Shown: piece after piece, positions 19,763-38,300 of the stretch | How positions within the stretch are numbered: the stretch's first letter is position 1 | Layout of the letters: the number at the start of each line of letters is the position of its first letter | DNA from: Leucobacter salsicius M1-8 | Lineage (GTDB): Bacteria > Actinomycetota > Actinomycetes > Actinomycetales > Microbacteriaceae | Direction of reading: 5' to 3' | Length of the DNA stretch: 64,000 nt | Assembly: GCF_000350525.1 (NCBI RefSeq) | Contig: NZ_AOCN01000026.1 | Location: 134,770-198,769 of the forward strand | The notes under the pieces: generated by a model | What the model was told of the DNA's origin: nothing | Database searches by the model: none | Seen by the model: the letters and a program-made list of their open reading frames with translations, nothing else | Made by a program: the position numbers and the translations under genes

Positions 19763-19775
19763 CGCGAGCATGGCC

Positions 19776-19830
19776 GTTACATATGCTCACTGCATGTGCG
19801 CGATGCACATGAGTCGTGAGGGTATGTAAC
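19776..19830. repeat. 55-nt imperfect palindrome after the SURF1 gene
   Basis: Three nested paired blocks surround a GCGAT centre: GTTACATA (19776-19783) with TATGTAAC (19823-19830), CTCAC (19786-19790) with GTGAG (19816-19820), and CATGTGC (19793-19799) with GCACATG (19805-19811). Unpaired bases between blocks are 2-4 nt per side. It is followed by a separate, ordinary terminator, so termination is not its obvious role. It may be an operator array, an RNA processing site or a decayed repeat element. Confidence 0.7.
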
Positions 19831-19853
19831 AAATCAAGTGCAGCCCACCGAAT

Positions 19854-19894
19854 GCAGAAAGCCCCCGCGCAATGATTGCGCGGGGGCTTTCTGC
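19854..19894. terminator. Terminator between SURF1 and ABC-F genes
   Basis: A 20-bp perfect inverted repeat (19854-19873 with 19875-19894) lies 7 nt from the end of the ABC-F gene and 92 nt after the SURF1 stop. It serves the convergent genes. Confidence 0.88.
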
Positions 19895-19901
19895 GTTGAT
19901 A

Positions 19902-21500
19902 CTAGGACAGCTCGATGAGCTCCAGGTAATCCTTCGACCAGTGATCCTCGGTAGCCTCGGGCATGATCAGCACGCGCTCGGGATTGAGCGCCTCGACGGC
20001 ACCGTGGTCGTGCGAGACGAGCACGACAGCGCCGGTGAAGTGCGCGAGCGCGTCGAGGATCTCCTCGCGGCTCGCGGGGTCCAGGTTATTCGTGGGCTCA
20101 TCGAGCAGCAGCACGTTGGCGCTAGAGACCACGAGCATCGCGAGCGCGAGTCGCGTCTTCTCGCCACCCGAGAGTACCCCTGCGGGCTTCAGCACGTCGT
20201 CACCCGTGAAGAGGAACGAGCCGAGCACGCGTCGCGCCTCTGTCTCGGTGAGGTGCGACGACACGGAGACCATGTTCTGCAGCACGCTCGCCTTGACGTC
20301 GAGCGTCTCGTGCTCCTGCGCGTAGTAGCCCACCTTGAGGCCGTGGCCCGCAATGATCTCGCCCGTGTCGGGCTCGTCCACCTGCGCGAGCATGCGCAGC
20401 AGCGTGGTCTTGCCCGCACCGTTGAGCCCCAGCACGACGACCTTCGAACCGCGGTCGATCGCGAGATCGACGCCCGCAAAGATCTCGAGCGAGCCGTACG
20501 ACTTCGACAGGCCCTGCGCCATAAGCGGGGTCTTGCCACACGGCGAGGGATCGGGGAAGCGCAGTTTGGCAACACGCTCGACCTGACGCACGTCGTCGAG
20601 GCCCGAGAGCATCTTCTCGGCGCGGGCCACCATCTGGTGCGAGGCCGCGGCCTTTGAGGCCTTCGCGCCGAACTTGGCAGCCTGATCCTTGAGCGCCGAC
20701 GCCTTCTTCTCGACGTTGGTGCGCTCCTTGCGGCGACGCTCCTCGTCGGCGGCACGCTGGCGCAGGTACAGCTTCCAGTTCATGTTGTACGTGTCGATGA
20801 CCTGGCGGTTCGCGTCCAGGTAGAAGACTCGGTTCACGGTCTCACCCACGAGCTCGATATCGTGCGAGATGACGATGACGCCACCCTTGTAGGTCTTCAG
20901 AAACTCGCGCAGCCAAACGATCGAGTCGGCGTCGAGGTGGTTCGTCGGCTCATCGAGGATCATCGTGTCGGCATCCGAGAAGAGAATCCGAGCGAGCTCG
21001 ATACGGCGTCGCTGACCACCCGAAAGCGTCTTCAGCGGCTGATCCAGAATGCGGTCGGGCAGACCCAGGTTGCTCGAAATCGAGGCAGCCTCCGACTCGG
21101 CGGCGTAGCCACCGAGCGCGTGGAATCGATCGGTCAGGTTGCCGAATCGCTTCATCGCCTTTTCGGCGACGACCGGGTCCTCCGAAGACATGTCCTCGGT
21201 CGCCTTTTCGATGTTCTGCTGGAGCGTGCCGAGGCCGCGAGCATCGAGGATCCGGTGCCGTGCGATCTGCTCGGGGTCGCCGACGCGGGGATCCTGCGGC
21301 AGAAAGCCGAGCTCGCCCGAGATCGTGACCTTGCCCTCTGCGGGCTGCAGCTCCCCCGAGAGGGTGCGCGTGAGCGTCGTCTTGCCGGCGCCATTTCGGC
21401 CGACGAGGCCGATCTTGTCGCCGGGGTTCACGCGGAAGTTGACGCCGCCCATCAGTCGGCGCGCGCCGACGTCGATCGCGAGGTCCTCAACGGTGATCAC
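19902..21500 (-). CDS. ABC-F family ATPase (ribosome-associated type)
   Basis: A 532-residue protein with two ABC ATPase domains and no membrane part, the ABC-F layout. Walker A motifs are GRNGAGKT (34-41) and GLNGAGKT (near 350). Both domains have LSGG signatures (LSGGQRRR and LSGGEKTR) and Walker B LDEPTN. A charged helical linker (about 245-310) between the domains would enter the ribosomal E site. Members act in translation (EttA-like) or protect ribosomes from antibiotics, and sequence alone does not separate these. GTG 21500 is preceded by AAGGAG. The leader carries a small GC hairpin. Confidence 0.9.
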   Translation of the reverse strand: MITVEDLAIDVGARRLMGGVNFRVNPGDKIGLVGRNGAGKTTLTRTLSGELQPAEGKVTISGELGFLPQDPRVGDPEQIARHRILDARGLGTLQQNIEKATEDMSSEDPVVAEKAMKRFGNLTDRFHALGGYAAESEAASISSNLGLPDRILDQPLKTLSGGQRRRIELARILFSDADTMILDEPTNHLDADSIVWLREFLKTYKGGVIVISHDIELVGETVNRVFYLDANRQVIDTYNMNWKLYLRQRAADEERRRKERTNVEKKASALKDQAAKFGAKASKAAASHQMVARAEKMLSGLDDVRQVERVAKLRFPDPSPCGKTPLMAQGLSKSYGSLEIFAGVDLAIDRGSKVVVLGLNGAGKTTLLRMLAQVDEPDTGEIIAGHGLKVGYYAQEHETLDVKASVLQNMVSVSSHLTETEARRVLGSFLFTGDDVLKPAGVLSGGEKTRLALAMLVVSSANVLLLDEPTNNLDPASREEILDALAHFTGAVVLVSHDHGAVEALNPERVLIMPEATEDHWSKDYLELIELS

Positions 21501-21531
21501 GAATGAAGCTCCTTATGCAGGTGTGTAGGCC

Positions 21532-21564
21532 CCCACCCGGTGGGTGGGCAACCTCACTAGTCTA
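21532..21564 (-). promoter_or_regulatory. ABC-F gene promoter and leader hairpin
   Basis: TAGACT (21564-21559, minus strand) predicts transcription from about 21552. The leader then contains a 7-bp CCCACCC/GGGTGGG hairpin (21532-21548) before the AAGGAG ribosome site. Leader hairpins are used for antibiotic-dependent attenuation in some ABC-F genes, but this one is short. Confidence 0.4.
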
Positions 21565-21627
21565 CCCGCATTCCCTGCAGGGGCGATGCTGAGGCTCCCG
21601 AGGTCGCCCTAGTCTCGCCCTACCGCG

Positions 21628-22398
21628 CTAGCCTGCCGACCCCAGCGCGGCCGCGTCAGCCCAGAGCACCGTCGCTTGCTGCCCGGCCACCCGGGCAGCG
21701 GGCACGAGCGGCTCGCGTCGCGCGCGCAGGTCTGCGACCGCCTCGGCTTTGCCCGCACCACAGGCGAGCAGCCACACCCGCTCGGCGTGACGCAGCGCGG
21801 GGAGCGTGAGTGACACGCGCTCGGCCGGCGGCTTCGGCGAATCACGCACGGCGATCGCGAACGGTGTACCGGGGCCCTCCATGAGCAAATCGTCGCGGCC
21901 AGGGAAGAGCGAAGCGACGTGGGCATCCTCCCCGACCCCGCACAGCACGATGTCGAGTCGCCCCAGGGCCGCTACGATCGACGAATAGGTTGACGCAGCG
22001 GCGTCGAGATCGATACCGGTCTCGCTCGAGACGACGCGGTGTACATGCGACGCCGTCACCGGGACCACCTGAAACAGTGTGCTGTCGGCGAGGAGATCGT
22101 TGCGCTCGACGTCACCCGCGGGCAGCCACCGCTCGTCCCCCCATGCGAACCTCACACGGCGCCAGTCGACCCCCGCGGCTACACCGTCGGCTCCCGGATC
22201 AGCCTGCGCACGCGCGCCAAGCGCCGCGAGCACCGCGGCGCCAGCGCGCCCGCCCGTGAGCGCGATCGAAGGCACGTCGCCCGCCGCCTGGCGCTCCCGA
22301 AACACGCGAAGAATTTCGTCGGCGCAGGCAAGTCCCAGCTCGCTGAGTCCGGCGACTTCACGAATTGAAAGCGGTGCTCCCGCGGTCTGCTGCTCCAC
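21628..22398 (-). CDS. pgl: 6-phosphogluconolactonase
   Basis: Pgl hydrolyses 6-phosphogluconolactone to 6-phosphogluconate in the oxidative pentose phosphate pathway. The 256-residue product has the SugarP isomerase-like fold with SIALTGGRAG, RFAWGDERWLPAGDVERND and the signature CGVGEDAHVASLFPG. GTG 22398 is chosen because GGAGGCATAG lies just upstream; a longer frame would run into gnd. It is the last gene of the zwf-opcA-gnd-pgl run, 2 nt after the gnd stop. A deamidase-like relative is unlikely given the GDER motif and the context. Confidence 0.94.
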   Translation of the reverse strand: MEQQTAGAPLSIREVAGLSELGLACADEILRVFRERQAAGDVPSIALTGGRAGAAVLAALGARAQADPGADGVAAGVDWRRVRFAWGDERWLPAGDVERNDLLADSTLFQVVPVTASHVHRVVSSETGIDLDAAASTYSSIVAALGRLDIVLCGVGEDAHVASLFPGRDDLLMEGPGTPFAIAVRDSPKPPAERVSLTLPALRHAERVWLLACGAGKAEAVADLRARREPLVPAARVAGQQATVLWADAAALGSAG

Positions 22399-22400
22399 GG

Positions 22401-23849
22401 CTATGCCTCCACCTCGCTGCGGTCTCCCGACCACAGCGTATGGAACGACCCGTCGCGGTCGGTGCGCCGGTAGGTGTGCGCGCCGAAGAAGTCCCGCTGT
22501 CCCTGGATGAGCGCAGCTGGCAGGCGGTCTGCGCGCAGCCCGTCGTAGTAGGCCAGCGATGAGGAGAACGCTGGGGCTGGGATCCCGGCCTGTGCGGCCG
22601 CAGCCACCACGCGCCGCCAGGCACCCTGGCCGCGCGCGAGTGCGTCGGCGAAGTAGGGCGCAGCCATCAGAAGCGTGAGCTGCTCATTCGCTGCGAACGC
22701 GTCGGCAATGCGGTTCAGAAACTGGGCGCGAATGATGCAGCCGGCTCGCCACAGGCGCGACACCGCGCCCAGATCGATACTCCAGTTGTACTCGGCCGCC
22801 CCGGCCCGAATCTCGTCGAATCCCTGCGAGTAGGCGACGATCTTTGAGGCGTACAGCGCCTGGCGAACGTCTTCGATAAATGCCGCCTCATCGGCGACCG
22901 CAAACGTCTCATCGGGCCCAGGGAGCGCCGTGGCGGCGGCCCGCTGAGCGGCCTGGGCTGACAGCGAGCGCGCAAACGTTGCCTCGGCGATTCCCGACAC
23001 CGGCACACCGAGCGACAACGCCGTCTGCACGGTCCACGCCCCGGTGCCCTTCGCCCCGGCCTGGTCAAGAATCACGTCGACGAGCGGCGCCCCGGTGGTG
23101 GCATCTACCTGGCGCAGCACCTCGGCGGTGATCTCGACGAGGTAGGACTCCAGCTCCCCCGTGTTCCACTCCGCAAAGATGTCGGCGATCTCGGCGGGTG
23201 ACTTGCCGGTGCCGCGCCGGATCAGGTCGTAGGCCTCCGCGATGAGCTGCATGTCGGCGTACTCAATGCCGTTGTGCACCATTTTGACGAAGTGACCAGC
23301 CCCATCGTGGCCGACGTGGGAGACGCACGGCTCCCCCTCGGCGACGGCGGCGATGCTCGTGAGGATCGGGCCGAGGGTGGCCCACGCCTCGTCAGAACCA
23401 CCCGGCATGATGCTCGGGCCGTTCAGCGCCCCCTCCTCGCCGCCCGAGATGCCGACGCCCACAAAGTTGATGCCGCGCTCGCGCAGCGCCCGCTCACGGC
23501 GAATCGTGTCGGGAAAGTAGGCGTTGCCGCCGTCGACGATGATGTCGCCCGGCTCGAACACGGCGGTCAGTGCCTCGATCGTGGCATCGGTGGCGGCCCC
23601 GGCCTGCACCATCAGAATCGCGGTGCGCGGCTTCGTGAGGCTCGCGGCAAACGCCTCGTAGGAGGCCGCGGGCACAAAGCCTGCCTCGGGGAACTCAGCA
23701 ACGAGGGCCTCGGTGCGCGAGTGGCTGCGGTTGAACACGGCGACCGTGTTGCCCGCGCGGCTCGCAAGGTTGCGCGCCAGGTTGGCGCCCATGACCGCGA
23801 GACCGACGACGCCAATGTTGGCTGGACCGTGTGATGCGCCTACGCTCAT
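22401..23849 (-). CDS. gnd: 6-phosphogluconate dehydrogenase (decarboxylating)
   Basis: Gnd oxidatively decarboxylates 6-phosphogluconate to ribulose 5-phosphate with NADP. At 482 residues it is the long, homodimeric GndA type, not the short YqeC-like form. The N-terminal Rossmann motif is GLAVMGANLARN (16-27). The substrate site includes GISGGEEGA and GHFVKMVHNGIEY with the catalytic Lys, and the C-terminal part carries DQAGAKGTGAWT. Its ATG overlaps the opcA stop by 4 nt. In Corynebacterium gnd lies apart from zwf-opcA-pgl; here it is inserted between opcA and pgl, placing the whole oxidative branch in one transcript. Confidence 0.96.
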   Translation of the reverse strand: MSVGASHGPANIGVVGLAVMGANLARNLASRAGNTVAVFNRSHSRTEALVAEFPEAGFVPAASYEAFAASLTKPRTAILMVQAGAATDATIEALTAVFEPGDIIVDGGNAYFPDTIRRERALRERGINFVGVGISGGEEGALNGPSIMPGGSDEAWATLGPILTSIAAVAEGEPCVSHVGHDGAGHFVKMVHNGIEYADMQLIAEAYDLIRRGTGKSPAEIADIFAEWNTGELESYLVEITAEVLRQVDATTGAPLVDVILDQAGAKGTGAWTVQTALSLGVPVSGIAEATFARSLSAQAAQRAAATALPGPDETFAVADEAAFIEDVRQALYASKIVAYSQGFDEIRAGAAEYNWSIDLGAVSRLWRAGCIIRAQFLNRIADAFAANEQLTLLMAAPYFADALARGQGAWRRVVAAAAQAGIPAPAFSSSLAYYDGLRADRLPAALIQGQRDFFGAHTYRRTDRDGSFHTLWSGDRSEVEA

Positions 23850-24778
23850 GCGGGCTGCTCCGTTCGTGTGTCTAATTCAAGTTGCCCAACAACGCGACCG
23901 TAGGTGACGTCCTCGTCGAGGATACGCAGCTCTTCTGCGATGCACTCCCGCAGTGTTCGCCGCGGCAGCACGATCTCGTGATCCGGTTGACCCGGTTGGC
24001 TGAGCACGGCCCGATCCGGAGCCACGCGCGCAAGTCGCGCCGCGCCGTTCGCGCTGTGCAGCGTGACCGATCGCACCCCGCCAAGCGGTGAGTCGTCGCG
24101 TACAATCTGAAACTCGGTGGGCACCTCGAGCGCGAGCTTTAGCCAGGCGGCCAGCACGCGAGTCGAGGGCGAATCGAGGCCGCCCACCACGTCTACCGAG
24201 GTGACCGGGCCAAACCCAGCCTGATCCAGGATCGCGGCGAGGTATTCCCGCCAGCGGGTGAGGCGCGTCCACGCGAGGTCCGTGTCGCCCGGCGTGTAGG
24301 CGAGCACGCGATCGGTAAAAGCGTCCGCGTCAACGGCCGCGCTGTCGGTAATGCGGCGCTGGGCGATGCGGCCCAGCGGGTCCGCCCCGGGAAGCTCGGG
24401 GGCTTCGCCCGGCCACCACACGACCACCGGGGCGTCGGGCAGCAGCAGGCCATTCACGAGGCTCTCGAGCCCGCTGGACACCTCGCCGTACGCGCGCAAA
24501 ATGATCACGTCGCTCGCCCCGGCATCGGCGCCGACGCGAATCTCCGCGTCGAGCCGCGACTCGGAGGCCTCGGGCAATGCCACCAACACGATCACGCGCA
24601 TCGGGTGCTCGCTCGACGCGTGGTTGGCGGCCTCGACGGCCGCTTCGTCCACCGGATCAGTCGCAGAAATCACGAGGGTGAGCACGCGCCCCAGAGCCGA
24701 GACGCCGCCCTCGAGACGCAGCGACACGAGTCGATTGGCGATCTTGCTAACGGTCGTGTTGGGGAGCTGTTCGATCAC
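23846..24778 (-). CDS. opcA: OpcA, glucose-6-phosphate dehydrogenase assembly protein
   Basis: OpcA is needed for active glucose-6-phosphate dehydrogenase in actinobacteria and cyanobacteria. The 310-residue product matches the family: MIEQLPNTTVSKIANRL-like start, the central APVVVWWPGEAP with the PLGRIAQRRITDS region, and the C-terminal HEIVLPRRTLRECIAEELR. GTG 24778 overlaps the zwf stop by 4 nt and has GGAGACGG upstream. The order zwf-opcA is conserved. It is cytosolic, with no membrane segments. Confidence 0.93.
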   Translation of the reverse strand: MIEQLPNTTVSKIANRLVSLRLEGGVSALGRVLTLVISATDPVDEAAVEAANHASSEHPMRVIVLVALPEASESRLDAEIRVGADAGASDVIILRAYGEVSSGLESLVNGLLLPDAPVVVWWPGEAPELPGADPLGRIAQRRITDSAAVDADAFTDRVLAYTPGDTDLAWTRLTRWREYLAAILDQAGFGPVTSVDVVGGLDSPSTRVLAAWLKLALEVPTEFQIVRDDSPLGGVRSVTLHSANGAARLARVAPDRAVLSQPGQPDHEIVLPRRTLRECIAEELRILDEDVTYGRVVGQLELDTRTEQPA

Positions 24779-26304
24779 GGCCGTCTCCAGCTTCTGCCGT
24801 CCCGCGCGATGAGCGCGTGGGCCGATTCGGGGCCCCATGAACCGGGCGCGTACTGCTCGGGAGGCTCGTGTTGGGATTCCCAGAACCGCTCGATCGGGTC
24901 AAGAATCTTCCAGGACAGTTCCACCTCAGCCTGCCGCGGGAACAGCGGCGCATCGCCGAGCAGCACGTCGAGGATGAGGCGCTCGTAGGCCTCGGGGCTG
25001 GCCTCAGTGAAGGCGTGACCGTACCCAAAGTCCATCGTGACGTCGCGCACGCGGGTCCCGGTTCCCGGCACCTTGGCGTCGAACCGCATCGTGATGCCCT
25101 CATCGGGCTGCACGCGAATCACGAGGGCGTTGGCCCCCATGTCGGTGCCGTGCGTCTTGGCAAACAGCTCGCCGGCCTCGCGACGGAATACGACGGCGAT
25201 TTCGGTGACCCTGCGCCCGAGACGCTTGCCGGTGCGCAGGTAGAAGGGTACGTCGGCCCACCGTCTGGTGTTCACAACCAGCTTGAGTGCGGCGTACGTC
25301 TCGGTGTGCGACTGCGGGTTCATGCCGTCTTCGGCGAGGAACCCGCGCACGAGTTCGCCACCCTGCCAGCCGCCACCGTACTGGCCGCGCGCAGTAGCTT
25401 CAGCGAGGTTGTCCGGGAGCCGAACTGCCTCGAGCACCTTTTCCTTTTCGGCGCGCAAATGATCGGCGCTGAGCGAGATCGGCTCTTCCATCGCGGTCAG
25501 CGCAAGCAGCTGCAGCAGGTGATTCTGGATCACGTCGCGGGCTGCCCCGACGCCGTCGTAGTACCCCGCACGACCGCCGACACCGATGTCTTCGGCCATC
25601 GTGATCTGCACGTGGTCGACATAATTGCGGTTCCAGATCGGCTCGTACATCGAGTTCGCGAACCTGAGCGACAGGATGTTCTGAACTGTCTCTTTGCCGA
25701 GGTAGTGGTCGATCCGAAAGATCGAATCTGCGGGGAAGGCGTGTTCGAGCGTCGCGTTCAGCGCCTGTGCTGATTCGAGGTCTTCGCCAAAGGGCTTCTC
25801 GATGATGACGCGACGCCAACGCTGGTCGTCGGTCTTACGGTCAACAAGGCCCGAACTTGACAGGTGGTGGGCCACCTCGGGGAAAGATTTGGGGGGAATC
25901 GAGAGGTAAAAGGCGTGGTTGCCCATGGTGCCGCGCTCACGATCCAGCGCGTCAACGGTCTCACGCAAACGGACGTAGGCGTCGGGGTCATCGAAACGGC
26001 CCTGCACGAACCGGATTCCCTCGACGAGTTGCCGCCAGGTGGACTCCCGAAATGGGGTGCGAGCGTACTTACGCACGGCATCGTGCACGATCTCCGCGAA
26101 GTCGCGGTCCGCCCAGTCCCGTCGGCTAAAGCCGACGAGCGCGAAACCCGGGGGCAGAAGCCCCCGGTTCGCGAGGTCGTACACCGCTGGCATCAGTTTC
26201 TTGCGAGACAGATCCCCCGTCACCCCAAAGATGACGAGGGAGCTCGGCCCGGCGATCCGGTTAAGACGCGGATCGCCGGGCGAACGGAGCGGGTTCGGGC
26301 TCAC
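24775..26304 (-). CDS. zwf: Glucose-6-phosphate 1-dehydrogenase
   Basis: Zwf oxidises glucose 6-phosphate to 6-phosphogluconolactone, making NADPH. The 509-residue product has the nucleotide motif GVTGDLSRKK (27-36), EKPFG (169-173) and the active-site RIDHYLGKE (197-205, His200). The length is normal. GTG 26304 starts 4 nt after the sufT stop and has no good ribosome site, so translation is probably coupled to sufT. This ties zwf to the suf operon; its usual neighbours in actinobacteria are tkt-tal, here 7 kb away on the other strand. Confidence 0.96.
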   Translation of the reverse strand: MSPNPLRSPGDPRLNRIAGPSSLVIFGVTGDLSRKKLMPAVYDLANRGLLPPGFALVGFSRRDWADRDFAEIVHDAVRKYARTPFRESTWRQLVEGIRFVQGRFDDPDAYVRLRETVDALDRERGTMGNHAFYLSIPPKSFPEVAHHLSSSGLVDRKTDDQRWRRVIIEKPFGEDLESAQALNATLEHAFPADSIFRIDHYLGKETVQNILSLRFANSMYEPIWNRNYVDHVQITMAEDIGVGGRAGYYDGVGAARDVIQNHLLQLLALTAMEEPISLSADHLRAEKEKVLEAVRLPDNLAEATARGQYGGGWQGGELVRGFLAEDGMNPQSHTETYAALKLVVNTRRWADVPFYLRTGKRLGRRVTEIAVVFRREAGELFAKTHGTDMGANALVIRVQPDEGITMRFDAKVPGTGTRVRDVTMDFGYGHAFTEASPEAYERLILDVLLGDAPLFPRQAEVELSWKILDPIERFWESQHEPPEQYAPGSWGPESAHALIARDGRSWRRP

Positions 26305-26308
26305 CGGA

Positions 26309-26659
26309 TCAGATCGAGAAGCCCAGAGCGCGCATCATGTCGCGCCCATCGTCGGTGATCCGTGCCGGGGTCCACGGCGGCATCCATACCCAGTTGATAC
26401 GGAACGCCGTCACGAGCCCATCAAGGCACTCAGCGATGTCGTTCTCGATGACGTCGGTGAGCGGGCAACCCGCGCTCGTGAGCGTCATGCTGATAACGAG
26501 CGCATCGTGCTCTTCGTCGAAGGCTAGATCGTAGATCAAGCCCAGGTCGTAGATGTTCACGCCCAGCTCAGGGTCGGAGACGTTCTTCAACGCCTCGATC
26601 GCTTGTTCCCGAAAGTCGGGATCAATCGACATAGGTGAAACTACCGCTTCGTCAGCCAT
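26309..26659 (-). CDS. sufT: SufT-like MIP18/DUF59 Fe-S assembly factor
   Basis: A 116-residue DUF59 (MIP18) protein. Such proteins are auxiliary carriers or scaffolds in Fe-S cluster maturation and usually close suf operons. Family motifs are VSDPELGVNIYDLGLIYDL (27-45) and MTLTSAGCPLTD, with the conserved, functionally important Cys65. The C terminus WMPPWTPARITDDGR is typical. It starts at ATG 26659, 9 nt after sufC, and its stop is 4 nt from the zwf start, so it bridges the Fe-S and pentose phosphate genes. Confidence 0.9.
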   Translation of the reverse strand: MADEAVVSPMSIDPDFREQAIEALKNVSDPELGVNIYDLGLIYDLAFDEEHDALVISMTLTSAGCPLTDVIENDIAECLDGLVTAFRINWVWMPPWTPARITDDGRDMMRALGFSI

Positions 26660-26668
26660 AGGAGTAGC

Positions 26669-27427
<759 letters not shown>

Positions 27428-27431
27428 AGCT

Positions 27432-27758
27432 TTAAATCTCTTTCGTGATGGTGGGGTCAATGTACACGTCGTCGTCTTCGATCTCGACGACATAAACGGG
27501 AACCGGCTCGTACGCCGGAAGGTTCTGCGGCACACCCGTGGTGAGCGAGAACTGGGAGCCGTGCGCCCAGCACTCAAGGGTGTCGTCCTCAACAAAACCC
27601 TCGGACAGGCTGATCTGACCGTGGGTGCAGGTGTCGCCAATTGCGTGCACTACACCGCTCGAGTCGAGCACGAGAGCGATCGGCACCCCGTCAACATCGA
27701 CCTTGACCGCTTGATCCTGGGTCAGGTCTGCGAGGGCAATCGCTTTCTGGCGAGCCAT
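27432..27758 (-). CDS. Rieske-type [2Fe-2S] ferredoxin of the suf operon
   Basis: A 108-residue small Rieske protein, the non-heme iron oxygenase ferredoxin type. Cluster ligands are C44 and H46 in CTHG, and C63 and H66 in CWAHG. Homologues lie between sufD and sufC in many actinobacteria; they may supply electrons for cluster assembly or for an unidentified oxygenase. The ATG overlaps the sufD stop (TAATG) and the gene ends 4 nt before sufC. The canonical Rieske disulfide cysteines of bc1 complexes are absent, as expected for this type. Confidence 0.92.
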   Translation of the reverse strand: MARQKAIALADLTQDQAVKVDVDGVPIALVLDSSGVVHAIGDTCTHGQISLSEGFVEDDTLECWAHGSQFSLTTGVPQNLPAYEPVPVYVVEIEDDDVYIDPTITKEI

Positions 27759-28936
27759 TACGCGAGCACGCTCTGCTCGAGCTCCGCATCGATAGCGCGC
27801 TGCAGGCGCTCTTCGATCTGCTCGTTGCCGATGCGCTGGATCACCTCGACGAGGAAGCCGCGCACAACCAGCTTGCGAGCCTCGTCCTCGGAGATGCCAC
27901 GGCTCTGCAGGTAGAAGATGTGCTCTTCGTCAAAGCGACCCGTGGTAGACGCGTGCCCGGCACCGGCGATGTCGCCGGTCTCGATCTCCAGGTTTGGGAT
28001 CGAGTCGGTGCGCGTGCCCTCGGTCAGCGTGAGGTTGCGGTTCTCCTCGTAGCTGTCGGTGCCCGCCGCGACACGTCGAATCAGCACGTCGCCAATCCAA
28101 ACAGCGTGTGCGCCCTCGCCCTGCAGTGCGCCCTTGTAGGCGACGCGGCTGCGGGTGCGGGGAGCATTGTGATCCATGTAGACCTGGTGCTCGAGGTGCT
28201 GGCCAGCATCGGCGAAGTACGCGCCGTAGCATTCGCCGTTTGCGCCCTGCTCGTCGAGGTGAATCGACGGGTTGAGGCGCACGACCTTGCCACCGAGCGA
28301 AACCACGATGTGCTGCAGGTTCGCATCGCGGCCGACCGTGACGTTGTGGCTTGCCAGGTGGATCGCGTCTGCGTCCCACTCCTGAATCGACACGACGGTG
28401 AGGTTTGCGCCCGCACCGACAACGATCTCGACGTTCTCGGTCAGGTTTGCGCTGCCCGAGTTCTCGATGATCACGAGCGCCTCGGCCTGCGGAGCTGCCT
28501 CGATGATGGTGTGAGCGGCGGTCGCGTCACTGCCCAGTGCCGAGCGCTGGATCGTGACGGTCTGACGCTCGGGGCTCGTCAGCAGAATGTGCTGAGCGAC
28601 CTGGGCCTGACCCCATGCGTTTGCGGCGGCCTGGTCCTCGGGAAGACCCGCACGGCCAACGAGCTCGGAGTCCATTGGAATGAAGCTGATCTTGAGGCCG
28701 TCGGCCTCGCTGATCGTGCTCGGCAGTTCGCCACCGCGCAGCTCGCCTGAGAGCAGGCCCTTCAGCTGTGCGACGGGCGTGTACTTCCAATTGACCTCGC
28801 GACCGGTGACCTCGGGGAAATCAGCGATGTTGGTGGACTTGAAGCGCTGTGAGCGCGTCTGGATCGGTGCCCGGTTGTCCCAGTCTCCGTCAGAGTGGGC
28901 TTTGAACCCGTGCTGTTCTGTCTGAAGCGTTGACAT
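27758..28936 (-). CDS. sufD: SufD, Fe-S cluster assembly scaffold subunit
   Basis: SufD pairs with SufB and SufC in the SufBC2D scaffold. The 392-residue product shows the SufBD beta-helix core with SVVNIHLDEQGANGECYG-like spacing, DHNAPRTRSRVAYKG and the C-terminal FDEEHIFYLQSRGIS. The shorter N-terminal region distinguishes it from SufB. ATG 28936 is 2 nt after the sufB stop. No sufS or sufU gene follows in this operon, which differs from the classic actinobacterial set. Confidence 0.95.
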   Translation of the reverse strand: MSTLQTEQHGFKAHSDGDWDNRAPIQTRSQRFKSTNIADFPEVTGREVNWKYTPVAQLKGLLSGELRGGELPSTISEADGLKISFIPMDSELVGRAGLPEDQAAANAWGQAQVAQHILLTSPERQTVTIQRSALGSDATAAHTIIEAAPQAEALVIIENSGSANLTENVEIVVGAGANLTVVSIQEWDADAIHLASHNVTVGRDANLQHIVVSLGGKVVRLNPSIHLDEQGANGECYGAYFADAGQHLEHQVYMDHNAPRTRSRVAYKGALQGEGAHAVWIGDVLIRRVAAGTDSYEENRNLTLTEGTRTDSIPNLEIETGDIAGAGHASTTGRFDEEHIFYLQSRGISEDEARKLVVRGFLVEVIQRIGNEQIEERLQRAIDAELEQSVLA

Positions 28937-28938
28937 CG

Positions 28939-30357
28939 TTAACCGACGGATCCTTCCATGCTCATCTCAATGAGCTTGTTCAGTTCGAGCGCGTACTCCA
29001 TGGGCAGCTCGCGGGCAATCGGCTCAATAAAGCCGCGCACGATCATTGCCATGGACTCCTCTTCGGAGAGACCGCGGCTCATGAGGTAAAAGAGCTGCTC
29101 TTCGCTCACGCGCGTCACGGTGGCCTCGTGTGCCAGCGTCGCGTCGTCAGTGCGAATGTCGATCGCCGGGTAGGTGTCGCTTCGCGAGATCGTGTCTACG
29201 AGCAGCGCGTCACACACCACCGAGTTGGCAGCATGGTGAGCATTGGCTTCAACGCGCACCTCGCCGCGGTAGCCGGTGCGTCCGCCACCACGAGCGATCG
29301 ACTTCGACAGGATCGAAGACTTCGTGTGGGGAGCGAGGTGCACCATCTTGGCGCCCGCATCCTGGTGCTGGCCGGGGCCGGCAAATGCGACCGAAAGGGT
29401 TTCGCCCTTTGCGTGCTCGCCCACGAGGTACACCGAAGGGTACTTCATGGTGACCTTGGAGCCAATGTTGCCATCGACCCACTCCATGGTCGCGCCCTCT
29501 TCAGCGATCGTGCGCTTCGTGACGAGGTTGTAGACGTTGTTCGACCAGTTCTGGATCGTCGTGTATCGAACGCGGGCGTTCTTCTTCACGATGATCTCGA
29601 CGACGGCCGAGTGCAGCGAGTCCGACTTGTAGATCGGAGCCGTGCAGCCCTCAATGTAGTGAACGTAGCTGCCCTCATCGGCGATGATCAGCGTGCGCTC
29701 AAACTGGCCCATGTTCTCCGTGTTGATACGGAAGTAAGCCTGAAGCGGGATCTCGACGTGCACACCCTTTGGCACGTACACGAACGAGCCACCTGACCAC
29801 ACGGCGGTGTTCAGCGCGGCGAACTTGTTGTCACCCGACGGGATGACCGTGCCGAAGTACTGCTCGAAGATCTCGGGGTGCTCGCGGAGCGCGGTGTCGG
29901 TGTCCAGGAACAGAACGCCCTGCTGCTCCAGATCCTCGCGGATCTGGTGGTAGACAACCTCGGACTCGTACTGAGCGGCGACACCGGCGACGAGGCGCTG
30001 GCGCTCGGCCTCGGGGATACCGAGGCGCTCGTACGTTTCCTTGATTTCCTCGGGAAGCTCTTCCCAGCTGGTCGCTTGCTTTTCGGTCGACCGCACGAAG
30101 TACTTGATGTTGTCGAAGTCGATGCCCGACAGGTCGGCACCCCACGTGGGCATGGGCTTGCGTTCGAAGATCTTAAGGGCCTTTAGGCGTCGCTCAAGCA
30201 TCCACTCTGGCTCATTCTTCAGAGCAGAGATTTCACGCACGACCTGCTCGCTAAGGCCACGCTTTGCTAGCGCACCGGCCTTATCGGTGTCGTGCCAGCC
30301 GAACTCGTACTGGCCCAAGCCTTCAAGCTCGGGCCGGTCGATCAATACCTCTGGCAT
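28939..30357 (-). CDS. sufB: SufB, Fe-S cluster assembly scaffold subunit
   Basis: SufB is the main cluster-building subunit of the Suf system. The 472-residue product opens with the N-terminal helical domain ([20 protein letters not shown]) and has [13 protein letters not shown], where the Cys is the likely sulfur acceptor or cluster ligand, and the C-terminal [20 protein letters not shown]. There is no intein, although SufB is a common intein host in actinobacteria. ATG 30357 has GGGAGGG upstream. It is the first gene of the long minus-strand run. A SufR repressor gene, usual upstream of sufB, is not present. Confidence 0.96.
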
Positions 30358-30385
30358 GATCCCTCCCTATAGTTAGTTCAGTCCG

Positions 30386-30395
30386 TCTCGCGAGA
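30386..30395. promoter_or_regulatory. Perfect 10-bp palindrome in the sufB-ctaA intergenic region
   Basis: TCTCGCGAGA lies 29-38 nt upstream of the sufB ATG, next to a possible -10 (TAACTATAG on the minus strand). It may be an operator for the suf run or for ctaA. The 267-nt divergent region holds no gene; further A/T-rich promoter-like sequence lies at 30540-30565 on the ctaA side. Confidence 0.4.
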
Positions 30396-30624
30396 AACCC
30401 CATGCCGCGCCGAATTAGTGGCCCGGCGGCCAAGGCCGCACTCATCGGGTTCCCTGCCACGGTGCAGTAGTCTGGGCCGCAACCGATGGCGATCCGAGAG
30501 CGAGAAATTGCCAATCGGATCGACGATCACAACCACAGCTTCCTATTCTACAGTTTTTTGTCTGAAAACGGGAGGGGCACGCCAACTGCCCTGGTGTATA
30601 GGAAGCGGCTTGAGAGGAGCCCCG

Positions 30625-31575
30625 TTGTCTCGCGCGACCGCTAGCAAATCCCCCGCGAGGGAAACCCTCGCCCCTGGCGCCGTCACCTCGCGGTGGTTGC
30701 GCTTCAGCGCGTGGGCCTCATTTGCACTCAACACGCTGATTATCGCGACCGGCGGCGCGGTGCGCCTCACGGGTTCGGGCCTCGGTTGCCCCGAGTGGCC
30801 GCTCTGCGCTCCCGGTTCGCTGGTCCCCACCCAGGAGCTGACGTACCACTCCCTCATCGAGTTCGGGAACCGCACAATCTCTGGCCCGCTCCTCATTGCC
30901 GGTCTGCTCGTCGTCATCTTCAGCTGGCGCATTCGCGCAGAGCGGCGAGACCTCTTCTCGCTCTCCTGCGTCATCCTGGGCCTTGTCGCGCTGCAGGCCT
31001 TCGTGGGCGGCGTGATCGTCTGGATGCACCTGAACGCCAACCTCGTGGCCTTCCACTACGTTGTCTCACTCGTGCTGGTGTGCCTCACCGCGGCGTATCT
31101 GGCACGCATGAATGAGGCTCGCGGCAAGCGGGTCTCGGTCGTCCCGAAGCCCTTCGGCATCGCCACACACGTGTCGACGCTGGTCATGGCCGTCACCGTG
31201 CTCTTCGGAGTGATTACCACCGCTTCGGGCCCACACTCGGGCGACGCCACGATTCAGCGCGACGGTGTCGACGCGACGTTCATGAGCCATGTGCACTCGT
31301 GGCCCGGATACGCGGCCCTCGCGTGCACCGTAGCGCTCGTGGTGTGGGCTGCAGCGAAGAAGCTGCGGCCGCTCCCCTGGCTCGTGACGCTTCTCGCGGT
31401 GCTCGTCGTACAGATTCTGGTGGGCGTCTACCAGGCCCGCGAGGGTCTGCCCCCGTTTGCGGTGGGCGTGCACATGGTGCTGGCGACGCTCACGACCGCG
31501 ACGATGACCGTCGCGGTGCTGCGTCTTAAGCGCCCGGTGGCCGAGGTTGAGGCCGCAACGGCCACTGCGAAGTAA
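30625..31575 (+). CDS. ctaA: Heme A synthase (COX15/CtaA)
   Basis: CtaA oxidises the C8 methyl of heme O to give heme A for aa3-type cytochrome oxidase. The 316-residue membrane protein has eight hydrophobic segments and the conserved histidines in SLIEFGNR context (H in YHSLIEFGNR), in MHLNANLVAFHYVVS, in FMSHVHSWPGY and in VGVHMVLA. The pair GLGCPEWPLC carries two cysteines typical of this class. TTG 30625 is chosen because GAGAGGAG lies at good spacing; the frame upstream lacks coding character. It is divergent from sufB. CtaB, which makes heme O, lies 0.8 kb further on. Confidence 0.93.
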   Translation: MSRATASKSPARETLAPGAVTSRWLRFSAWASFALNTLIIATGGAVRLTGSGLGCPEWPLCAPGSLVPTQELTYHSLIEFGNRTISGPLLIAGLLVVIFSWRIRAERRDLFSLSCVILGLVALQAFVGGVIVWMHLNANLVAFHYVVSLVLVCLTAAYLARMNEARGKRVSVVPKPFGIATHVSTLVMAVTVLFGVITTASGPHSGDATIQRDGVDATFMSHVHSWPGYAALACTVALVVWAAAKKLRPLPWLVTLLAVLVVQILVGVYQAREGLPPFAVGVHMVLATLTTATMTVAVLRLKRPVAEVEAATATAK

Positions 31576-31585
31576 CGAAGCAGCG

Positions 31586-32386: not shown

Positions 32387-32423
32387 GGCCCACAATGTAG
32401 CAGCCGGGCGGGCGACGAATCGG

Positions 32424-33350: not shown

Positions 33351-33371
33351 CACACCCCATGATACCTATTC

Positions 33372-33385
33372 GAGTCTGTAGACTC
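33372..33385. promoter_or_regulatory. tkt promoter with overlapping palindrome
   Basis: TAGACT at 33379-33384 is the likely -10 of tkt. It lies inside the perfect inverted repeat GAGTCT-GT-AGACTC (33372-33385). The divergent ctaB -10 (TATCAT, 33364-33359) is 8 nt away, so a protein bound to the palindrome could affect both genes. Confidence 0.5.
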
Positions 33386-33430
33386 TCGGAGGGTGCGCAT
33401 TCACGCGCACGTAACGAGGAAAGGTGTGCC

Positions 33431-35497
33431 TTGGGTAACGAACTGCAGTGGGAAGAGCTCGACAACAAAGCGGTAGATACCGCGCGCGTGTTGGCGGCGG
33501 ACGCTGTCGAGAAGGTGGGCAACGGCCACCCGGGTACGGCAATTAGCCTGGCACCGGTGTCGTACCTGCTGCATCAGAAGGTCATGAACCACGACCCGGC
33601 AGACCACAAGTGGGCGGGTCGCGACCGGTTCATTCTCTCGATCGGGCACTCGTCCCTCACGCAGTATGTGCAGCTGTACCTCGGTGGCTACGGCCTCGAG
33701 CTTGAGGACATCAAGGCCCTGCGCACCTGGGGTTCGAAGACCCCCGGTCACCCCGAGTACGGCGACACCGACGGCGTCGAGATCACGACCGGCCCGCTCG
33801 GCCAGGGCCTCGCCTCCGCCGTGGGTTTCGCGTATGCCGCGCGCTACGAGCGCGGGCTGTTTGATCCCGAGGCCGCCCCCGGCACGAGCCCCTTCGACCA
33901 CAACATCTACGTGATCGCGGGCGACGGCGACCTGCAGGAGGGCGTCACGAGCGAGGCTTCGTCGCTCGCAGGCCACCAGGAGCTCGGCAACCTGATCGCG
34001 ATCTACGATTCGAACCAGATCTCGATCGAGGACGACACTGACATCTCCTTCTCGGAGGACGTGGCGAAGCGCTACGAGTCCTACGGCTGGCAGGTCATCG
34101 AGGTCGACTGGAAGAAGACCGGCGCGTATGTCGAGGACATCGCCGAGCTCAACAGTGCGATCGAAGCGGCCAAGGCCGAGACCGGCAAGCCAAGCCTCAT
34201 CATCCTCAAGACCGTCATTGGCTGGCCCTCGCCCGGTAAGCAGAACACGGGCGGCATCCACGGTTCGAAGCTGGGTGCTGACGAACTCGCTGGCCTGAAG
34301 ACCGCTCTGGGATTTGATCCGGATCAGCACTTCGCCGTAGCCCCCGAGGTCATTGAGCACACTCGCCTCGCGGTCGACCGCGGTGCGGCTCGCCGCGCTG
34401 AGTGGCAGGCGCGTTTTGACGCGTGGGCCGCCGCGAACCCCGAGCGCAAGGCGCTCTTCGATCGGCTCGAGGCGCGCGAGTTGCCCGCGGGCGCACTCGA
34501 GGCGCTGCCCGAGTTCGAGACGGGCGCGAGCATCGCAACCCGCGCGGCCAGCGGCAAGACGCTTGCCGCCCTCGGCCCGATCATGCCCGAGCTGTGGGGC
34601 GGCTCTGCCGACCTCGCCGGTTCGAACAACACCACGATTCCCGGCGCCGCATCCTTCGTGCCCGCGAACCACTCGACGTCCTCCTGGACGGGTAACGAGT
34701 ACGGCCGCGTGCTGCACTTCGGTATTCGCGAGCACGCCATGGGCGCGATCCTCAACGGCATTCAGCTGCACGGCAACACGCGCAGCTACGGCGGCACGTT
34801 CCTGCAGTTCGCTGATTACATGCGCCCCGCCGTGCGTCTCGCGGCCCTCATGAACGTGCCCAGCATCTTCGTGTGGACCCATGACTCGATCGCCCTCGGT
34901 GAGGACGGCCCGACGCACCAGCCGGTCGAGCACATTGCCGCACTGCGTGCGATCCCCAACCTCGCGATGGTGCGCCCCGCCGACGCCAACGAGACCGCTA
35001 TTGCGTGGCACGAGGTGCTGAGCCGTCACGCGGGCCCCACCGGCCTCGCGCTGACGCGCCAGAACGTGCCCGTGCTCGAGGGCACCGCGAACGAGGGTGT
35101 GCGCCGCGGCGCATACGTGCTCGCCGACTCCCCCACTGGTAACCTCGACGTCATCCTCATTGGCACGGGCTCCGAGGTGCAGCTCGCCGTGGAGGCGCGC
35201 GAGCGTCTCGCGGCCGAGGGCATTGGCGCGCGCGTCGTGTCGGCCCCCTGTCTCGAGTGGTTTGCCGAGCAGACCCCCGATTACCGCGCAGAGGTGCTGC
35301 CCGCCAATGTGAAGGCACGCGTGAGCGTCGAGGCCGGCATTTCGCTCGGCTGGGAGCGCTACGTGGGCGACGCTGGCCGCTCAGTTTCGATTGAAACCTT
35401 TGGCGCATCAGCCGACTATGAGACGCTGTTCAAGAAGTTCGGCATCACCACCGACGCCGTTGTGGCGGCGGCGCACGACAGCTTGGCTCAGGCCTAG
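33431..35497 (+). CDS. tkt: Transketolase
   Basis: Thiamine-diphosphate enzyme of the non-oxidative pentose phosphate pathway, moving two-carbon units between sugar phosphates. The 688-residue product has the N-terminal [14 protein letters not shown], the ThDP motif [13 protein letters not shown] ending near [11 protein letters not shown], the pyrimidine domain with [15 protein letters not shown] (catalytic Glu) and the C-terminal domain. TTG 33431 follows GAGGAAAGG and matches the family start. It is followed by tal after 35 nt and pgi, forming a three-gene operon. Confidence 0.96.
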
Positions 35498-35532
35498 TTA
35501 CTCATTTTCTACCCCTGAAGGAGGCGCGTTCC

Positions 35533-36648
35533 ATGACGAACTCACGCACCCGGGCGCTCAGCGACGCTGGCGTTAGCATCTGGCTCGATGACCTCTCACG
35601 AGAGCGCATTGAATCGGGTAGCCTCGCCGCCGCCGTTGAGACGCTCAGCGTCGTCGGTGTCACCACGAACCCGACGATCTTTCAAAAGGCAATCGGAGCG
35701 GGCGTGGGCTACGGCCCCCGCATCGCCGAGTGCGCGAGTCGCGGGTTCGACGCAGAGGCGACGATTACGGAGCTCACGAGCACCGACGTCGCCGACGCGT
35801 GTGACGTGCTGCGGGGCGTCTACGACGCCACCGGCGGCCGTGATGGGCGCGTCTCCATCGAGGTAGAACCACACCTAGCCCGCGACACGGCGGGCACCGC
35901 CGCGCGCGCGCTGGAGTTGTGGTCCAAGGTCAACCGCGAGAACGCGATGATCAAGATCCCGGCCACCGTCGAGGGACTCGCCGCGATCACCGCGGCAACC
36001 GCGGCGGGTGTCAGCGTCAACATCACGCTGATCTTCAGCCTCGAGCGATACCGTCAGGTCATTAACGCCTACCTCACGGGCCTCGAGCAGGCGCGTGCGG
36101 CGGGGCTCGACCTGTCCAAGATTCACTCGGTCGCCTCGTTCTTCGTATCGCGCGTGGACACCGAGGTGGATGCCCGCCTCGAACGGATCGGTACCGCCGA
36201 GGCCCTCGAGCTCAAGGGCAAGGCGGGGCTCGCTAACGCCCGCCTCGCCTACGAGGTCTACGAGGAATCCTTCGCGAGCGAGCGCGCGCGCCACCTCGCT
36301 TCCCTCGGCGCGAATCGCCAGCGACCCCTCTGGGCCTCGACCGGGGTGAAGGATCCGGCGCTCCCGGACACCCTGTACGTCGCTGGTCTGGTCGCGCCGA
36401 ACGTGGTGAACACCATGCCCGAGGCCACGCTGCAGGCGGTCGCCGACCACGGCGACTTCGCAGATGCCACTGCGGCCGTCACCGGCGCGTACGCCGAATC
36501 AAACCAGGTGCTTAACGCCCTCGATGCGCTCGGCATTGATTACGCCGTGGTCACCGAGCTGCTCGAGATCGAGGGTCTGTCGAAGTTCGATGTCTCCTGG
36601 GACGAGCTCACCGCCACGGTTGAGGCGGCGCTGGAGGACCAAGCGTGA
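35533..36648 (+). CDS. tal: Transaldolase
   Basis: Transaldolase transfers a dihydroxyacetone unit between sedoheptulose 7-phosphate and glyceraldehyde 3-phosphate. The 371-residue product is the longer actinobacterial type. The Schiff-base lysine is Lys141 in MIKIPAT; other signatures are [14 protein letters not shown] (41-54), [11 protein letters not shown] and [16 protein letters not shown] 35533 has GAAGGAGG upstream. The stop overlaps the pgi GTG by 4 nt, so the two are coupled. Confidence 0.96.
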
Positions 36649-38300
36649 CCCACCTGAGGATTCACCTCTCCGACGGGGTGCTCGAGTCCTTCGCGTTCCG
36701 CGACGCCCTCGGCCGGTTGGTGAACGATGGCGTGGCAGGCCAGATCTTCGCCCAAAATCCCACGCTGTGGGGGCCCGCCGCCGAACCCGAGGCGCGGATG
36801 CGCCTGGGGTGGACCGACAGCGCGCCGGGTGCCCGGGCGCTGCTCCCCCAGATTGAGGCGCTCCGGCAAGCGTTTCTTGCGCGGGGCATCGACCGCTTCG
36901 TGCTGTGCGGCATGGGCGGTTCGAGCCTCGGCCCGGCCGTGATCGCACGCTGGGCGGGGGTCGAACTCACGATGCTCGATACGACCGACCCCGTCGCCGT
37001 ACAGCGGGCCACCGCCAGCGACCTCACCCGCACCGCAGTCGTCGTCAGCTCAAAGTCGGGCAGCACGATTGAGACGCGCAGCCACCTCGACACGTTCGAG
37101 CAGGCCTTCGAGGCGGCTGGTATCGCCCCCGAAGCACGAATCGTCATCGTCACCGACCCTGGCTCGCCGTTTGAGCAGGAGTCGCGAGACGCGGGCCGCC
37201 ACGTATTTCTCGCGGACCCCAACGTCGGGGGCAGGTTTTCAGTGCTCACCGCGTTTGGTCTCGTGCCCGCCGGGCTCGCCGGCGCCGATGTCGCGAGCCT
37301 CGTCGAGGCGGGCGACGCCGCCCGCGCCGAACTCGTCCCCGATGCCCCATCAAACCCGGCACTTCGGCTTGCCGCCGCGCTCTTCGCTGGCCTCCCCGAT
37401 CGGTTTGTGCTCGCCCTCGACGAGGCCCCCTCTGCACGCTGGGACCTCGGCCGTTGGGCTGAACAGCTCGTAGCCGAGTCGACGGGCAAGGAGGGCCTCG
37501 GTATCCTGCCGATCGCGCTCCCGTCAGACGCTCCCGAGTTCTCGCGGGTTCCCGTCGCAGCCATCACGGCGCGCGTCGCCGGGCCCGGGGCCGACCTGGG
37601 CATTGACCCAGGTGACTCCGAGGGATCCGGATCCGGATCCGGATCGCGCGACATCACGGTCGCGGGCTCCCTGGGCGCGCAGTTTCTCGCGTGGGAGGTC
37701 GCCACCGCCGCGCTCGGGCGACTGATGGGCATTGACCCCTTCGATCAGCCCGACGTCGAATCCGCCAAGGTCGCCGCTCGCGCGGCGCTCGCCGAGTTGC
37801 AGGGGGCACCCGCGACACACGAGGGCCCCCGCACCGGCGCGGTCACTGTCGTCGAACAGCCCGCAGGCGCCACCGTCGAATCCGCCTCGGACATCGCGCG
37901 CACGCTGCGCGCCATGACGCCCGCGGCCGGTTATCTCGCGATCCAGGCCTATGTCGACCCCCAGGGGGCACTGCGCGCACCGCTTGAGCGCTTGCGGGCG
38001 AGCCTCGCCACGGCGCTGCAGGTGCCCGTATCTCTCGGCTACGGCCCGAGCTACCTCCACTCGGTGGGGCAGCTCCACAAGGGCGGACCAGCGCTCGGCG
38101 CCTTTCTCCAGATCACGAGCCCCGGTGATGCCGACCTCGCGATCGCGAAATCGGAGAGCAGCTTCGCCACGCTCATCGACGCTCAGGCCCGGGGCGATCG
38201 CGGGGTGCTCGTACAGCGCGGCAGGCCCGTCCTCGCGCTCGAGCTTGCGTCACAGGACGCGAGTGTAATCGAACAGCTGACTGCTGCGCTCACGGCGTAG
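36645..38300 (+). CDS. pgi: Glucose-6-phosphate isomerase
   Basis: Pgi interconverts glucose 6-phosphate and fructose 6-phosphate, joining glycolysis to the pentose phosphate pathway. The 551-residue product has the sugar-isomerase (SIS) features [10 protein letters not shown] and [12 protein letters not shown], and a C-terminal [19 protein letters not shown]. It resembles the type found in tal-pgi operons and tal-pgi fusions. An unusual flexible insert, four Gly-Ser repeats, is encoded by GGATCC units at 37623-37646. GTG 36645 is coupled to tal. A hairpin terminator follows. Confidence 0.94.
37623..37646 (+). repeat. Tandem hexamer (GGATCC)3-GGATCG inside pgi
   Basis: Four in-frame six-base units encode Gly-Ser four times in a predicted surface loop of glucose-6-phosphate isomerase. 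Three overlapping copies of the decamer GATCCGGATC result. A direct repeat of this kind can expand or contract by slippage without changing frame. Confidence 0.9.

Follow-up and report, generated by a model that had tools for sequence, protein, structure and literature searches.

In the 64,000-nucleotide window of the Leucobacter salsicius M1-8 genome described here (contig NZ_AOCN01000026.1), nine minus-strand genes were read from the open reading frames in the order sufB-sufD-Rieske-sufC-sufT-zwf-opcA-gnd-pgl, from position 30357 to position 21628. The genes for iron-sulfur (Fe-S) cluster assembly (suf) are thus followed by those of the oxidative branch of the pentose phosphate pathway. This arrangement quite probably arose by insertion behind sufT of an acquired, Microbacterium-type zwf-opcA-gnd-pgl cassette lacking a promoter of its own, which would be read from a promoter at sufT together with read-through from sufB, with translation of zwf coupled to that of sufT.

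The distribution of the genes was explored in 54 Leucobacter genomes, in 47 of which the sufB region was read, the other seven being drafts of at least 150 contigs; 45 genomes formed a high-quality set (completeness of 90% or more, contamination of 5% or less). The zwf-opcA-gnd-pgl cassette lies between sufT and an ABC-F family gene in 16 of the 47 loci, five keep a native tkt-tal-pgi-zwf-opcA-pgl cluster with gnd elsewhere, and 26 show neither cassette nor native zwf. Protein searches detected zwf in 22 of the 54 genomes (one of them, the unread draft G043, with a fragment on its suf contig) and the G6PD_C profile in 21, while gnd was found in 23, two of these matches being partial (G043 and G046). 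Within the high-quality set, zwf and gnd are both present in 21 genomes and both absent from 24; the oxidative branch is all-or-none in Leucobacter and, where it stands after sufT, probably of foreign origin. The first-pass annotation had noted neither this origin nor the lack of the branch in many relatives. False absence of zwf was ruled out, since the profile and protein searches agree on 21 of the 45 genomes and gnd tracks the same ones. Neither does a transhydrogenase substituting for the pathway explain the losses, PNTB occurring in one of the 45 high-quality genomes (G027) and in four of the 54 overall. No genome among the 54 carries two zwf genes, the two matches in G023 being pieces of one; at that locus (L104, zwf 12262-13780) two overlapping frames lie near a C run, which means a sequencing error or else a disrupted gene. 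In a survey of 219 genomes drawn from the larger family, restricted to the stronger places, zwf was present in 208. Genera g6, g30, and g51 also include genomes without zwf and gnd, and two such g51 genomes measure 2.8-2.9 Mb and carry a sufB 95% identical to that of the window.

An empty site with the same flanks is displayed by 31 of the 47 loci, the ABC-F gene being the next gene found after sufT in all 31, at a gap of -4 to 453 nt. Short matches to the cassette within this gap (13-33 aa, E 0.002 or weaker) were taken as chance rather than as remnants. The first-pass annotation of this DNA had considered that the arrangement might be unique to one assembly; since 16 genomes share it, it is not such a quirk. 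Conservation across several genera, which that annotation had looked to for support, did not emerge, the arrangement having turned up in a single genus. Among the best 80 of 589 zwf loci from named genomes, with flanks read up to 10 kb, all five Leucobacter loci show sufT-zwf-opcA-gnd-pgl-ABCF and none of the 75 others does (mostly Microbacterium, also Agromyces, Microterricola, and a few more), zwf sitting there after tal or pgi. Leucobacter chironomi DSM 19883 and L. zeae are among the cassette carriers. Likewise, the sufT-linked order is absent from all 28 zwf-bearing genomes of other genera that we picked from the 219 surveyed; in each of them zwf lies 6.7-12.8 kb from sufB on the opposite strand, as seen by comparing coordinates by hand.

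Phylogenies of zwf and gnd, with 49 rows each, were inferred under a mixture model, which was also used for the approximately unbiased (AU) tests of a single Leucobacter clade, and a simpler model served for trees holding 74 Microbacterium rows. The 16 cassette copies form one clade (support 100 for zwf and 99 for gnd) that joins Microbacterium with values of 99 and 100, respectively, in the Shimodaira-Hasegawa-like approximate likelihood ratio test, and the native copies, from five Leucobacter genomes, group with genus g47 (100 and 99). A single Leucobacter clade is rejected by the AU test for zwf (p 4.6e-5), gnd (p 4.1e-4), and opcA (p 6.1e-8), and with 74 Microbacterium rows the clade of cassette plus Microbacterium reaches 100 for zwf and 99 for opcA. 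The combined sufB and sufD tree unites cassette, native, and empty Leucobacter strains, along with g47 and g51, in a single clade (99). Thus, the zwf, gnd, and opcA trees conflict with the relatives of the host and yet agree with each other, a pattern that, together with the empty site, fits an acquired cassette. This tree evidence covers zwf, gnd, and opcA of the four cassette genes. Genus g85 is taken as Microbacterium on the basis of the zwf of its genome G214, identical to that of M. suaedae. In three g85 genomes zwf and gnd are hundreds of kb apart or on separate contigs, and since they are unlinked there, two loci carry one and the same donor signal. In the five native-zwf Leucobacter genomes gnd is also unlinked to zwf.

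Two vertical explanations have to be weighed against acquisition. The cassette might derive from an intragenomic move, native zwf-opcA-pgl having passed from the tkt-tal-pgi locus into the suf operon and gnd having joined it; in favour of this, the opposite strand carries that locus within a few kb, and native zwf does occur in some Leucobacter strains. However, cassette and native copies split in the zwf, opcA, and gnd trees, which makes this move scarcely credible, and the AU tests of the three genes reject a plain rearrangement of native genes. Alternatively, fast-evolving native copies (the five Leucobacter plus g47) could leave slower cassette copies near Microbacterium as a tree artefact, all of them being inherited vertically. 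The long stem of the native group (0.56 in zwf), the warning given by the opcA tree that long branches may meet, and the position of genus g24 outside the native group in zwf and gnd would suit such an artefact. Considering, on the contrary, that (i) three genes concur under a mixture model, (ii) support for the cassette rows with Microbacterium is 99-100 in the zwf and gnd trees, and (iii) the pattern of filled and empty sites is independent of any tree, the artefact is judged very improbable.

Several observations nonetheless speak against acquisition from Microbacterium in its simplest form. In the 49-row opcA tree the cassette plus Microbacterium grouping has a support of 92 only. Placement of the donor differs between genes, the cassette zwf being sister to Microbacterium (73) and opcA nested within it (99), and a single Microbacterium clade for opcA is compatible with the AU test (p 0.66). 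Genus g24, a neighbour of Leucobacter by sufB and sufD (93), branches outside the native group in zwf and gnd, on a long branch. In none of the 75 non-Leucobacter loci does gnd lie beside zwf within the flanks read, and no mobility gene was named in a scan of 20 window proteins, of which three matched no family. Flanking repeats in the window amount to weak matches. The donor would be of the Microbacterium lineage or a near relative not yet sampled, with the cassette placed inside or beside that genus.

To follow the cassette within the genus, an rpoB tree of 47 genomes was rooted, by our choice, on G039 plus G048. Its 16 cassette rows correspond to 15 complete cassettes and draft G043, and seven of the 54 genomes are omitted (G010 and G035, with no rpoB match; G031, G038, G041, G045, and G046, with a partial one). 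A clade of 39 rows (97/96) gathers the 16 cassette strains and 23 empty ones, the native-zwf strains and three empty ones falling outside. Four changes of cassette state are needed on this tree, three of them forced by well-supported branches, and a single clade of cassette strains is rejected (p 1.3e-7). The window genome (G000) and G015 are placed by rpoB among 14 empty strains. In the zwf tree they group with G006, G023, and G049, a clade that rpoB rejects (p 3.6e-50); a grouping of G000 and G015 with G002, G009, G010, and G024 is likewise rejected by zwf (p 0.0045). One early gain with repeated loss, transfer within the genus, or both would fit these data, some transfer being favoured.

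Regarding the run itself, the reading frames reproduced exactly the nine genes, order, strand, and spacings first annotated for it, the gaps from sufB to pgl being 2, -1, 4, 9, 4, -4, -4, and 2 nt (Table 1). The start of zwf is the GTG at 26304, 4 nt past the sufT stop, and the opcA start overlaps the zwf stop by 4 nt. As also stated then, zwf lacks a ribosome site, no Shine-Dalgarno sequence being seen by eye before this GTG, and no alternative in-frame start occurs back to the preceding in-frame stop or within the first ten codons. SufB, SufD, SufC, Zwf, Gnd, and Pgl score above the NCBIfam cut-offs, and OpcA, SufT, and Rieske assignments are best matches below them. The G+C fraction is 0.63 for zwf, 0.62-0.64 for the suf genes, and 0.68-0.69 for opcA-gnd-pgl, values not used as evidence. 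In actinobacterial suf operons the sufS/sufU cysteine desulfurase pair belongs to the same cluster; sufS, sufU, and sufR are absent among the nine genes, the remainder of the genome not having been searched. Upstream of sufB come ctaA, named chiefly from its position on a weak family match, a methyltransferase, and ctaB. Plus-strand tkt, tal, and pgi, not noted in the first-pass annotation, lie 3 kb past the sufB 5' end. The methyltransferase, UbiE-like and located between ctaA and ctaB (31586-32392, minus strand), is present in nine of the 47 Leucobacter loci; a homologue stands directly 3' of sufT in G115, G131, and G077, from other genera; its position around the suf locus is thus likewise not fixed.

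Table 1. Genes and promoter-like signals of the suf-cassette region in the window.
Feature	Position	Strand	Remarks
sufB	28939..30357	-	TIGR01980, 722 bits (cut-off 346)
sufD	27758..28936	-	TIGR01981, 231 bits (cut-off 222)
Rieske-type [2Fe-2S] ferredoxin	27432..27758	-	best matches are dioxygenase ferredoxin models, below cut-off
sufC	26669..27427	-	TIGR01978, 349 bits (cut-off 213)
sufT (DUF59/MIP18-type)	26309..26659	-	TIGR02945, 77 bits, below cut-off 143; 3' of sufC in 47/47 loci
zwf, glucose-6-phosphate dehydrogenase, first cassette gene	24775..26304	-	TIGR00871, 634 bits
opcA, glucose-6-phosphate dehydrogenase assembly protein	23846..24781	-	TIGR00534, 192 bits (below cut-off 256), sole family match
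gnd, 6-phosphogluconate dehydrogenase, cassette member	22401..23849	-	PRK09287, 709 bits
pgl, 6-phosphogluconolactonase, last cassette gene	21628..22398	-	TIGR01198, 149 bits (cut-off 124)
ABC-F family gene, right flank	19902..21500	-	adjoins sufT directly in 31/31 cassette-less loci read
tkt, tal, pgi	33359..38300	+	usual zwf neighbours in the family; here without zwf-opcA-pgl
P_sufB, TAGAAT -10 box preceded by TG	30545..30550	-	~190 nt before the sufB start; taken as the main promoter of suf
P_sufT, leaderless-type TAAGCT-ACTCCT-ATG	26660..26671	-	directly before sufT ATG (26659)
P_ABCF, TAGACT box, right-hand border of unit	21559..21564	-	-10-like box 42-91 nt upstream of ABC-F in 16/16 cassette genomes

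Promoter-like signals were then compared among loci. A TAGAAT, TAGACT, or TAGAGT box lies 148-209 nt upstream of sufB in all 47 Leucobacter loci. Directly before sufT, 45 of the 47 show TA[G/A]nnT-N6/7-ATG, and 12 of 19 loci from other genera show a similar leaderless-type signal. A TAnnnT motif about 12 bp before the start, which is the form taken at sufT in those 45 loci, is a mark of leaderless genes frequent in Actinobacteria, as described in parts of PMC3160421 and PMC3890552. In the window the TAA of TAAGCT doubles as the sufC stop codon, and since the box stands clear of that stop in many relatives, the stop codon alone does not explain it. In the same Leucobacter loci, TA[G/A]nnT with N5-8 spacing stands before 132 of the 8919 ATGs that the sufT strand contains, those of sufT included, and in the 16 cassette genomes the leaderless-type pattern is found at 0 of 16 starts for each of sufB, sufD, Rieske, sufC, zwf, opcA, gnd, and pgl. 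The view that no promoter fits inside the run is therefore doubtful. On the minus strand of 19000-34000 no sigma-70-type site was recorded, by an Escherichia coli-type consensus and with totals at chance level. The companion claim of no internal terminator stood, no terminator-like minus-strand site being found in 21628..30357 by a scan whose totals are at chance level. The first-pass observation was right in the main, its one clause excluding an internal promoter being probably wrong.

A search for common -10 hexamers within 200 nt upstream returned none before zwf, opcA, gnd, or pgl in all 16 cassettes. The same search returned hits before ABC-F in 16 of 16, sufB in 12, and sufT in 13, and in 184 of 4000 random windows. 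The ABC-F promoter region of the window (21549-21564, minus strand) reads TAGACTNGNNAGGTTG, a string common to many Leucobacter loci and also present in G103 and G125 from other genera, for which reason it was dropped as a footprint of a lost cassette. The ABC-F -10 box is missing from 22 of the 31 cassette-less Leucobacter loci, the five native-zwf ones included.

Differences at the junction behind sufT were explored. Among cassette-less loci, a stem of at least 11 bp follows sufT in 17 of the 30 scanned, the 31st having no gap; as background, such stems turned up in 16 random windows and 11 mononucleotide shuffles out of 600 each. In nine of the 16 cassettes, the window with its 4 nt included, zwf starts 0-14 nt past sufT, which leaves no space for a hairpin. 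The absence of a box before zwf, opcA, gnd, and pgl, together with this tight junction in nine of 16, makes sufT-linked transcription likely. To that extent the single suf-pentose phosphate transcript first proposed is partly supported; the conserved promoter-like box at sufT indicates that the unit may instead be sufT-zwf-opcA-gnd-pgl, starting at sufT and not at sufB. Judged from these sequence signals, reading of sufT-zwf-opcA-gnd-pgl from the sufT promoter plus suf read-through is most likely.

This account of transcription meets its own difficulties. A T-run follows the hairpin in few loci (e.g., G003, G012, and G051) and is missing in most, so that terminator function is an assumption. 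In the other seven of the 16 cassettes, 46-170 nt separate sufT from the position aligned with the zwf start of the window, although some of them have nearer in-frame zwf starts, and a hairpin scan, feasible among cassettes in these seven alone, gave stems of 11 bp or more before zwf in four (G001, G002, G009, and G033), so that read-through may be weak there. The hexamer search was also narrow, missing the window's own sufT box TAAGCT, which renders the lack of a box before zwf suggestive and not a proof. The window is thus one of the tight junction forms and not the sole form. Genes unrelated to the cassette were also seen by eye close behind sufT in other genera (G157, G131, and G101), so tight spacing after sufT is not special in itself. 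In L084 (G002) and L092 (G010) a second copy of the sufT 3' end seems, by eye, to stand between sufT and zwf, possibly left by recombination at this junction, and L091 (G009) and L092 (G010) have 1.1 and 2.0 kb between pgl and ABC-F, compared with the usual 49-221 nt.

These wide gaps bear on another explanation, in which zwf would have its own unrecognised promoter inside sufT and the cassette would be independent of suf, the site being merely a safe landing place. In its favour, TAnnnT is a degenerate motif, the hexamer search, as said, was narrow, and G002, G009, and G010 have 105-170 nt before zwf and, by eye, a purine-rich ribosome site. Nevertheless, none of the 16 cassettes has a -10-like box in the 200 nt upstream of zwf, by a search that does detect the ABC-F and most sufB boxes and seldom fires on random windows. 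An own zwf promoter is thus regarded as unlikely.

Under the preferred reading of an acquired cassette served by sufT, a complete zwf-opcA-gnd-pgl set would have been gained by Leucobacter from the Microbacterium lineage or its near relative and inserted between sufT and the ABC-F gene. The insertion, or later trimming, would have taken out the post-sufT hairpin, leaving zwf 4 nt behind sufT. Without a recognised promoter, the cassette would be transcribed from the leaderless-type sufT promoter and by read-through from the sufB promoter, and zwf, without a ribosome site, would be translated through coupling to sufT, as its anatomy suggests. The native zwf-opcA-pgl genes are missing from the tkt-tal-pgi locus in cassette strains.

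The first-pass annotation had gone further, proposing a redox circuit in which the whole nine-gene transcript is a selected unit that, when iron or oxidative stress sets in, raises reduced nicotinamide adenine dinucleotide phosphate (NADPH) along with Fe-S repair. Tight spacings and the lack of a recognised box at zwf agree with it, as do precedents for joint suf and zwf induction in Corynebacterium glutamicum. In the part of PMC4510997 concerned, sigH overexpression raised sufB, tal, zwf, and opcA and tripled glucose-6-phosphate dehydrogenase (G6PDH) activity, and in the corresponding part of PMC3489674 an rshA mutant had sufR and zwf up, but most suf-cluster genes stayed under threshold. Against a selected circuit, the arrangement occurs in Leucobacter only, a promoter-like box lies inside the run at sufT, intervening sequence precedes zwf in seven of 16 cassettes, and sufR, raised in that mutant, is not among the nine. 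Furthermore, the C. glutamicum precedent belongs to another family and, in the portions of these sources that treat it, acts without a shared transcript. As a whole the nine-gene circuit is therefore doubtful; a stress-responsive redox circuit of some kind in Leucobacter is possible on this analysis, and it is simpler to read the suf operon as a place of insertion that already offered a promoter.

Compared with known systems, the run shares with the actinobacterial tkt-tal-(pgi)-zwf-opcA-pgl cluster the presence of zwf, opcA, and pgl in order on one strand, as in the 75 non-Leucobacter loci (a few of them incomplete) and five Leucobacter genomes; it differs in leaving tkt-tal-pgi outside on the plus strand, in placing gnd between opcA and pgl, and in standing behind sufT. 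The suf part is that of the family, sufB-sufD-Rieske-sufC-sufT being found in 47 of 47 Leucobacter loci and sufD-Rieske-sufC-sufT in all 19 readable loci of other genera. What follows sufT varies: four pentose phosphate genes in the window, ABC-F, often after a hairpin, in cassette-less Leucobacter, and various genes in other genera. SigH-type co-regulation in C. glutamicum likewise ties Fe-S assembly genes to zwf and opcA, as far as the relevant parts of PMC4510997 and PMC3489674 describe it, whereas a shared sigma factor does there what physical linkage would do in Leucobacter. No report of zwf loss or suf linkage in Leucobacter was found in titles and abstract openings of open-licence PubMed Central articles, and the main text of a comparative genomics study of the genus (PMC6868719) contains no mention of pentose, glucose, glycolysis, central metabolism, or 6-phosphate.

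As for the genus as a whole, the chances appear about even for a longer history, in which much of Leucobacter would have lost the oxidative branch and a subset would have regained it as a promoter-less cassette that uses the suf promoter and displaced the terminator, the cassette then being moved between species or lost by recombination through its conserved suf and ABC-F flanks, and NADPH supply becoming hard-wired to Fe-S assembly in that subset alone. In any case, a pathway nearly universal in the family is an accessory cassette in one of its genera, where native, acquired, and absent states coexist in close relatives. This makes testable how life proceeds without G6PDH and 6-phosphogluconate dehydrogenase, how a promoter-less metabolic cassette may be captured by a housekeeping operon, and what effect tying NADPH supply to Fe-S assembly may have on stress tolerance.

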